Assembly (NCBI GenBank): GCA_000436755.1
Contig: FR887291.1
Location: 1 to 10,088, forward strand
DNA length: 10,088 nucleotides
Reading direction: 5' to 3'
Source: Clostridium sp. CAG:253
GTDB lineage: Bacteria > Bacillota > Clostridia > Lachnospirales > Lachnospiraceae
In this document: positions 6,561 to 8,218 of the stretch, piece after piece
How positions within the stretch are numbered: position 1 is the stretch's first letter
How the letters are laid out: each line of letters begins with the position of its first letter
Program-made: the position numbers and the translations under genes
The notes under the pieces: generated by a model
The model's database searches: none
Seen by the model: only the letters and a program-made list of their open reading frames with translations
Told to the model about the DNA's origin: nothing

Positions 6561-6608
6561 TTTTGGCACATTTTGACATAATCTGCAAGAAAGATACTGT
6601 AATATAAA
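6561..6608 (+). promoter_or_regulatory. Probable Spo0A-controlled sigma-A promoter of spoIIGA-sigE
   Basis: TTTTGGCA (6561-6568) and TTTTGACA (6571-6578) are exactly 10 bases apart. On the opposite strand they read TGCCAAA and TGTCAAA, each one mismatch from the 0A-box TGNCGAA. The second overlaps a perfect -35 TTGACA (6573-6578). Possible -10 elements are TAATAT (6600-6605, spacer 21) or TATAAA (6603-6608, spacer 24), both too far for ordinary sigma-A promoters. The B. subtilis spoIIG promoter is known for a consensus -35 with a 22-base spacer and 0A boxes overlapping the -35, activated by Spo0A-P. The same layout here is a strong contextual match; the exact -10 is uncertain. Confidence 0.65.
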
Positions 6609-6628
6609 TTTAACATCACATCAGTACA

Positions 6629-6641
6629 GGGGGTTGTAATT
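6629..6641 (+). promoter_or_regulatory. Ribosome binding site and AUU initiation codon of spoIIGA
   Basis: A GGGGG run (6629-6633) precedes ATT (6639-6641) by 5 bases, the best spacing among the in-frame near-cognate codons (ATC 6615, ATT 6639, ATT 6666, ATA 6678). G-runs of the same kind precede the ylmC-like gene (9062-9066) and the minus-strand acidic gene (2612-2616), so this is a usable Shine-Dalgarno variant here. A poor start codon would keep protease levels low. Confidence 0.6.
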
Positions 6642-7484
6642 TTATTTTATGCTGATTTTTATTGGATTCTAAACTTTATAATGAATTTATTTCTAGTATG
6701 GATTACGGCGTTTATACGCAGAAAAAAGTATACGCCGTTTCGATGGCTCACAGCTTCGGCTGTGGTATCTTTTTTGTCACTGATATATAAAATCCGACTG
6801 CTCATGGGAAAAAGAAGTATACCGGAGTTTTTTTTCATGTTTTTTAGTATTATGCTTCTCACGGCATTTTCATATACATATAGAGAGTATAAAGGGAAAA
6901 ATATACTGAAAGCATATATTAAAGACATGGTATCGTTATTGTTTAGCTCAGTTCTGACTGCCGGAAGTCTTTTATTGGTGAGAAGAGTTATTCACACCGG
7001 AGAGAAGGCAAGTATCCTGACTGCATTTGGTTTATCAATAGTATCATTTGCAATACTTTATGTATTATTTGCTGTTTTGCGTAATATGATTAAGAGTGAG
7101 GCGAAAAAGTGTGAAGTTACTTTAAAGGCAACGCTTTTTCAGGGGAATAAGCATGTAATAATAAATGTTTTGTATGATACGGGAAATAATCTGTCGAGTC
7201 CATATACAAATGAACCTGTAAATATAATATCAGAAAAGACAGCCATGCAGATTGGAATCAGGAAAGTACAGAAACCGCTTCTTATACCGTACAATTCAAT
7301 TGGCGGAAGCGGTATGTTGGAAACTTTCAGATTTGAGAAAGCTGTATTTCAAAATGGTGAAGTGATGCTGAATTTTTTGGGAGCATTAAGCAAAGAGATA
7401 GATGATAACGATGATATTCAGATGATTCTAAATTGCTCCAGCAAAAAACAGAAAAAAAGTGCTAAAAGGAGGACAAAATGGTAA
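6639..7484 (+). CDS. spoIIGA: SpoIIGA, sporulation sigma-E factor-processing membrane peptidase (AUU start)
   Basis: A 281-residue aspartic protease that sits in the sporulation septum and removes the pro-sequence of pro-sigma E. The N-terminal half is hydrophobic with about five membrane segments. The cytoplasmic half has the active-site motif YDTGNNL, with Asp180 (B. subtilis Asp183), then [12 protein letters not shown]. The first ATG (6681) would cut off half of the first helix. Upstream the frame is open to a TAA at 6600-6602 and contains no ATG, GTG or TTG. Starting at ATT 6639 gives [13 protein letters not shown], which aligns without gaps to the B. subtilis start MKIYLDVIWLLNF, and a G-run (6629-6633) lies 5 bases before it. 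I therefore choose ATT; a sequencing error is the alternative. The end overlaps sigE by 7 bases. The family assignment is firm; the start is inferred. Confidence 0.9.
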
Positions 7485-8218
7485 AGATTTCAATGCCAAA
7501 CAAATTTCAATTCAGAATGATGCCGGAGATAAGAGGATTTATATTTCCTAAAAGAGGAGGGGAGATACATTATATAGGAGGAGCCGAGATTTTACCTGCA
7601 CCGTTTACGGTAGAAGAAGAGGAACAGGTGATGAAAAAACTCGGTTCGGATGATGATAAGGAGGCCAGGAGCAGTCTTATCGAGCACAATTTGAGACTTG
7701 TTGTATATATAGCAAAAAAGTTTGATAATACGGGTGTCGGTGTCGAGGACCTTATATCAATAGGTACGATTGGACTTATTAAAGCGATAAATACATTTAA
7801 TCCGCTTAAAAATATCAAACTTGCTACATATGCGTCGAGATGTATAGAAAATGAAATTCTGATGTATTTGAGAAGAAATAATAAACTTAAACTTGAAGTA
7901 TCAATTGATGAGCCGCTAAATGTTGACTGGGACGGAAATGAACTGCTCTTGTCCGATATTCTTGGCACTGATGAAAATATTATATCAAAGGACATGGAGG
8001 ATGAAGTTGATAAGAAACTTTTGAGACTGGCACTTGAAAAACTGAGTAAAAGAGAACGCATGATAATTGAATTAAGGTTTGGACTTAATTCAAAGGACGG
8101 AGAGGAAAAAACACAGAAAGAAGTTGCGGATATGATGGGGATTTCACAGTCATATATTTCAAGACTTGAGAAAAAAATAATAAGACGTCTCAAAAAAGAG
8201 ATAGTAAGATTGGAATAA
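7478..8218 (+). CDS. sigE: RNA polymerase sporulation sigma factor sigma-E (pro-form)
   Basis: A 246-residue precursor of the first mother-cell-specific sigma factor. The ATG at 7478 lies inside the end of spoIIGA (shared ATGGTAA), and AGGAGG (7467-7472) is 5 bases upstream within spoIIGA, so translation is probably coupled. Residues 1 to about 29 form a basic, hydrophobic pro-sequence that tethers the protein to the membrane; the cleavage zone is near [11 protein letters not shown] (27-37), matching DEVYYIGG in B. subtilis. Region 2 includes [12 protein letters not shown] (71-82), [17 protein letters not shown] (91-107) and [20 protein letters not shown] (114-133). The segment [19 protein letters not shown] (147-165) is sigma-E-specific. 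The region 4 helix-turn-helix spans [20 protein letters not shown] (214-233). The product is held inactive until SpoIIGA, encoded just upstream, cleaves it. Confidence 0.97.

Follow-up and report, generated by a model that had tools for sequence, protein, structure and literature searches.

A probable AUU start codon in the sporulation gene spoIIGA and recurrent non-canonical starts among its orthologues

In the stretch of Clostridium sp. CAG:253 DNA analysed here (10,088 nt, hereafter the window), the gene for the sigma-E processing peptidase SpoIIGA most likely begins at a rare and weak AUU codon at position 6639. We assign a probability of roughly 80% to the overall explanation, built from sequence comparison, in which this AUU would lie on a short leader transcribed from a Spo0A-type promoter and would throttle the protease relative to its substrate, pro-sigma-E. 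An upstream non-canonical start had been proposed in an earlier note on this DNA, and the proposal is now strongly backed by conservation, the position of the Shine-Dalgarno sequence, a predicted helix, a predicted promoter and repeated non-canonical starts in orthologues. The features at the start site are as follows.

6628-6634, forward strand: Shine-Dalgarno sequence AGGGGGT, seven continuous pairs with the anti-Shine-Dalgarno sequence (one of them G-U), duplex energy -10.6 kcal/mol
6639-6641, forward strand: ATT, proposed AUU start codon of spoIIGA, from Shine-Dalgarno position, orthologue comparison and missing canonical start
6681-6683, forward strand: first in-frame ATG of spoIIGA, internal Met15, inside predicted helix 1
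6639-7484, forward strand: spoIIGA, sigma-E processing peptidase, 281 residues counted from the AUU; PF03419, 116.2 bits

As the note had stated, the ATT at 6639-6641 is in frame with ATG 6681 and 14 codons ahead of it, the frame is open back to the TAA at 6600-6602 (12 codons before the ATT), and no ATG, GTG or TTG occurs in this frame across 6603-6680. The G-run that it described near the start is GGGGG at 6629-6633, 5 nt before the ATT. Its claim that the N-terminus upstream of ATG 6681 is conserved also held: of the 36 nt before that ATG, 34 are identical to those of Butyribacter intestini (L001), whose spoIIGA has a GTG start, and since identity over the compared stretch from ATG 6681 onwards is 65%, the upstream conservation is beyond chance. 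Identity in the promoter and leader is 61%. The window gene thus has no ATG, GTG or TTG at its conserved N-terminus and carries a near-cognate codon at Shine-Dalgarno distance, which makes it a candidate for the class of genes with near-cognate starts.

Profile searches gave a similar picture. Translated from the ATT, the protein scores 116.2 bits against PF03419 (curated cut-off 28.4) with a match that begins at profile position 2; translated from ATG 6681, it scores 96.7 bits, 19.5 fewer, and the match begins at position 14. The corresponding scores for TIGR02854 are 71.1 and 54.6 bits, a gain of 16.5 with both values below the equivalog cut-off of 209.55, and as the E-value is 9.9e-20 the window SpoIIGA is a diverged relative by that narrower model. 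SpoIIGA proteins have five N-terminal helices followed by an aspartic protease domain with a conserved Asp. An AlphaFold2 model (47 sequences, mean pLDDT 77.2, pTM 0.48) predicts helices at residues 2-27, 33-55, 63-78, 87-118 and 126-158, followed by a strand-rich domain containing Asp180. This residue, which the note had named as the protease Asp at position 180 counted from the ATT, is invariant in two alignments, one of them comprising 47 sequences. The first helix, which the note expected the ATT start to restore, is present in the model from residue 2, so a start at Met15 would leave only 13 of its residues.

The gene lies directly upstream of sigE and downstream of a promoter-like sequence, with the following features.

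6562-6568, complement: 0A-box-like TGCCAAA, one mismatch, upstream of the -35 element
6572-6578, complement: 0A-box-like TGTCAAA, one mismatch, overlapping the -35 element
6573-6578, forward strand: TTGACA, -35 element of a spoIIG-type promoter
6600-6605, forward strand: TAATAT, -10 element, 21 bp after the -35 element and containing the in-frame TAA at 6600-6602
7478-8218, forward strand: sigE (pro-sigma-E), starting with ATG behind a AAAGGAGG site of its own; NF006158, 393.3 bits, and TIGR02835, 381.2 bits
From 8282: sigG, downstream of sigE
From 9071: a gene for a YlmC/YmxH-family protein, downstream of sigG

The spoIIG promoter of B. subtilis is activated by Spo0A and has unusually wide spacing between its elements. 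In our survey of 177 spoIIGA loci, whose family part consists of the best 150 of 254 matching genomes, the pattern TTGACA-N21-TATAAT with at most two mismatches was found in 146 loci, compared with at most 18 of 177 for each of the other spacers between 15 and 24 bp and a single occurrence of the 21-bp spacer in shuffled sequence (one shuffle per locus). In the window, the predicted +1 falls near 6613, 26 nt before the ATT, so that ribosomes on this transcript would meet AGGGGGT at 6628-6634 first. A 7-bp hairpin in this leader (6619-6625 with 6650-6656), which would hold the Shine-Dalgarno sequence and the AUU in its loop, was rejected as it was no better than in shuffled sequences (z 0.60).

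These data bear on the simplest alternative, that translation begins at ATG 6681, with the conserved codons ahead of it untranslated or dispensable. This ATG is the first canonical start in the frame, and the predicted proteins of close relatives begin there. Inspection of the window sequence, however, showed no Shine-Dalgarno sequence before it, and some 68 nt would separate it from the predicted +1, with a Shine-Dalgarno sequence already present at 6628-6634. Together with the truncated helix, the far better conservation of the 36 nt before this ATG than of the gene after it, and orthologues that start upstream of the aligned position, this makes a start at ATG 6681 very unlikely.

The relatives whose predicted proteins begin at Met15 bear on a further alternative, that a GTG or ATG at 6633-6641 is hidden by a sequencing or assembly error. 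Two protein searches recovered 91 distinct proteins, and in exactly ten clusters of these (P0001-P0008, P0018 and P0019), 54-99% identical to the window SpoIIGA, the first residue is the one that aligns with Met15 (query position 15). A few other proteins are shorter and begin elsewhere inside, for example P0010, P0021, P0051, P0066 and P0085. A branch with 89/96 support separates the ten clusters and the window from upstream-starting Butyribacter-like proteins. A single base change would be enough to give back a canonical start, and the window could be a contig of metagenomic origin. Yet P0001 shares the internal start and differs from the window protein at two residues, which makes a chance error in one assembly unlikely, and the other nine clusters, though more diverged, have their first residue there as well. 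As ATT, ATC or ACG stands at the spoIIGA start site in other lineages too, and canonical starts are retained in nrdR from 79 of the surveyed genomes, we consider a hidden canonical codon highly improbable.

As the ten clusters are known as proteins, they show only that gene finders picked no canonical start upstream; that their start codons are non-canonical is read from where the predicted proteins begin. A contig search for their DNA returned only Butyribacter, and the genus, family, relatives and order samples yielded nothing above 56%. Viral contigs contained no relative (three pattern matches came without a SpoIIGA match), and phages gave no match. Gene finders limited to ATG, GTG and TTG would place the spoIIGA start at ATG 6681; in doing so they would mis-start the gene in whole clades, with the loss of half of the first predicted helix.

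To compare the aligned codon among orthologues, as the earlier note had proposed, we surveyed 177 loci comprising the window, 26 from a genus set (26 of 28 genomes) and 150 from a family sample (the best 150 of 254 matching genomes, out of 394); many of these genomes may be metagenome bins. Loci were anchored on the conserved Tyr-x-Asp segment with a position matrix, and a canonical start was sought from -5 to +2 codons (8 codons). This replaced an earlier motif anchoring that had given 21 loci without a start among 175, left one locus unanchored and mis-placed several. With the family part being the best 150 of 254, a canonical start was found in 162 of the 177 loci (54 ATG, 76 GTG and 32 TTG), so that 108 loci start with GTG or TTG, and 15 have no canonical start at the aligned site. 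The GTG count is 75 or 76 and the TTG count correspondingly 33 or 32, depending on the allowed Shine-Dalgarno distance.

Non-canonical codons recur among these 15 loci. ATT stands at the start in eight (L052, L091, L107, L113, L149, L180, L184 and the window), ATC in L147, and ACG after GGAGGTGA in L045, L057 and L073; to our knowledge, ACG starts are hardly known in bacteria. No codon was assigned in the remaining three (L101, L112 and L111, the last of which resembles a one-base indel). These 12 of 177 loci carry their ATT, ATC or ACG after a Shine-Dalgarno run of at least 5 at a distance of 5-11 nt, L057 only by way of its ATT, and a spare ATT, ATC or ACG meeting the same criterion occurs in 10 of the 162 canonical loci. 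L057 has two candidate starts, the ACG at 13 nt from the Shine-Dalgarno sequence and, in the codon just before it, an ATT at 10 nt. L180 and L184 have an in-frame stop directly before the ATT, and in L073 a GTG lies inside the GGAGGTG. L111 has an apparent one-base frameshift, an error or real, just past an out-of-frame ATG at its spoIIGA start.

On a tree without L101, L111 and L112, the non-canonical start needs eight changes, seven of them forced by well-supported branches; a rougher tree that includes these three loci needs 11, of which five are forced. Both trees carry six of the ten Met15-starting clusters, labelled non-canonical by inference. A class sample, in which 143 of 196 genomes matched and 50 loci were taken (the 30 best and 20 picked down the remaining list), gave 24 ATG, 16 GTG and 8 TTG starts, with one locus, L313, anchored at a low score. 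The two loci of this sample without a canonical start, L310 and L297, carry ATA either at the aligned site or in the codon that precedes it.

The survey also informs the choice of codon in the window, where the AUU is not the only candidate. Initiation could be upstream but at GUA 6636, which by alignment holds the position of the Butyribacter GTG, or at UUA 6642, the codon after the AUU, whose 8-nt spacing is nominally better than the 5 nt of the AUU. The available part of one study gives experimental support for a GTC start in Streptomyces sigR (PMC5472188). GUA 6636 is only 2 nt from the G-run, however, and both GUA and UUA are two positions away from AUG, whereas AUU 6639 shares its aligned offset with the ATT of L052, L091, L149, L180 and L184. 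A start at GUA or UUA is therefore unlikely, and AUU 6639 appears to be the best choice. Its 5-nt spacing falls short of the 7-10 nt seen in the eight other ATT or ATC loci. Its Shine-Dalgarno pairing is also towards the weak end for non-canonical starts, with an energy that does not reach their average and lies close to that of ATG loci. We also considered a start at the out-of-frame ATG 6649, which opens a 7-codon ORF ending at 6672, 8 nt before ATG 6681, with a subsequent frameshift or reinitiation at ATG 6681. This ATG is 15 nt from the G-run, a frameshift would lose the conserved Tyr-x-Asp, and the same ATG arises from the Tyr-Ala-Asp codons of normally starting orthologues (for example L003 and L005-L008). 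We rejected the mini-ORF as a coding by-product, with next to no probability left to it.

The diversity of start codons is not shared by control genes. In the same loci, sigE starts with ATG in 148, GTG in 20 and TTG in 7 of 175 when a wide position range is allowed, with none lacking a canonical start; two loci had no sigE match. With the 8-codon range, 170 are canonical and the remaining five show ATG at another nearby position. All 34 sigG genes found in these loci start with ATG, and nrdR, found in 79 of 80 surveyed genomes, starts with ATG in 70, GTG in 6, TTG in 3 and no other codon. Mean Shine-Dalgarno duplex energies for spoIIGA are -11.2 kcal/mol for ATG, -13.7 for GTG, -15.2 for TTG and -15.6 for non-canonical starts, compared with -11.4 for sigE.

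That the Shine-Dalgarno sites of spoIIGA become stronger towards the weaker codons (Kruskal p about 5e-9, relatedness ignored) speaks to whether a weak start, if real, is adaptive. Trace amounts of SpoIIGA might suffice, leaving start codons to drift under relaxed constraint; they are diverse and change repeatedly, and selection might tolerate weak starts without favouring them. The stronger Shine-Dalgarno sites, as well as the apparent persistence of non-canonical starts in whole clades, argues against such drift, which we regard as possible but doubtful.

The explanation that we favour, a weak AUU that limits the protease, would operate as follows. Transcription would proceed from the Spo0A-type promoter with its 21-bp spacer, ribosomes would bind AGGGGGU and initiate with fMet-tRNA at the AUU, and the product would be SpoIIGA with a complete first membrane helix. 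A weak codon behind a Shine-Dalgarno sequence may give low but reliable initiation, and since the same mRNA offers sigE an ATG with a separate AAAGGAGG site, we propose that pro-sigma-E is plentiful and the protease scarce by comparison. Start codons are weak in spoIIGA but those of sigE, its operon partner, are not, which suggests, indirectly, that SpoIIGA is held at low levels. The purpose may be stoichiometry or a delay in sigma-E activation; the most economical function would be stoichiometric, as the gene for a membrane protease of which little is probably required precedes the gene for its bulk substrate. The sequences themselves show the lack of a canonical start, the conservation, the Shine-Dalgarno position, the promoter pattern, the start-codon bias and its recurrence; initiation at the AUU, its low yield and its purpose are what we infer from them. 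The end of spoIIGA and the start of sigE overlap by 7 nt (7478-7484), so translational coupling is possible despite the strong site of sigE.

More speculatively, and with a low probability in our estimate, the spoIIGA start might work as a dial, turned in the course of evolution, that sets the first mother-cell checkpoint of sporulation, with lineages moving repeatedly from AUG through GUG and UUG to AUU, AUC, ACG or AUA as the Shine-Dalgarno sequence strengthens. Near-cognate forms would then make sigma-E activation sensitive to IF3, a link that the earlier note had raised, and to ribosome state, such that falling vegetative translation would help to release the checkpoint.

Near-cognate starts are already known from infC, pcnB, sigR and cvfC1, and what would be unusual about spoIIGA is recurrence in a single sporulation gene; no report of a non-canonical spoIIGA start was found among the papers listed in our literature searches. 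The AUU start of E. coli pcnB, in an unrelated gene and organism, reportedly limits gene expression. Another likeness is Streptomyces coelicolor sigR, for which the available part of the source describes a GTC start that is repressed by IF3 and sets the SigR:RsrA ratio, the annotated GTG lying within the ribosome-binding site (PMC5472188), as does the GTG of spoIIGA locus L073. Like spoIIGA, sigR on this partial account has a non-canonical start in a sigma-factor control operon that bears on the ratio of two partners, except that there the sigma factor itself is throttled and here, by our proposal, the protease that activates one.

Firmicute near-cognate starts have been described in S. aureus, in genes unrelated to spoIIGA. 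According to the accessible portion of that work, cvfC1 (AUU), ccpN and infC (both AUA) combine low efficiency with an extended Shine-Dalgarno sequence, reporters reach ~10% of AUG in poor medium, and ccpN reaches up to 30% in rich medium with no medium effect for cvfC1 (PMC13009471). The non-canonical codon is described there as conserved, whereas that of spoIIGA has changed repeatedly across a family. Weak start codons bear on sigma-factor circuits in two further cases, as far as the parts of these papers that were available indicate: B. subtilis sigG, where a canonical GTG acts together with a hairpin and with promoter spacing (PMC5942855), and Listeria rsbW, in which ATA and ATT variants are selected mutants (PMC13068326). 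In spoIIGA, near-cognate initiation appears to have been gained repeatedly in nature, beside a co-transcribed partner with strong starts, and its orthologues may serve as natural variants in which to test how the strength of a start codon affects the protease-to-substrate ratio and developmental timing.

Finally, infC in all six relatives examined has GGAGG-N9-ATT before its conserved segment, an apparent AUU start that makes AUU-type initiation plausible in this lineage. As in spoIIGA, the AUU stands behind a strong Shine-Dalgarno sequence, but SpoIIGA has no known role in initiation. The available text of PMC5472188 describes infC as autoregulated by its own product, IF3. The six infC loci (L061-L066, from G001, G002, G003, G020, G004 and G014) read TGGAGGTG(T/C)ACT, three bases, then ATT AGC GA(A/G) TTA ATG. 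The apparent AUU is thus four codons ahead of the next in-frame ATG, and in L064 a further in-frame ATG precedes the Shine-Dalgarno sequence.
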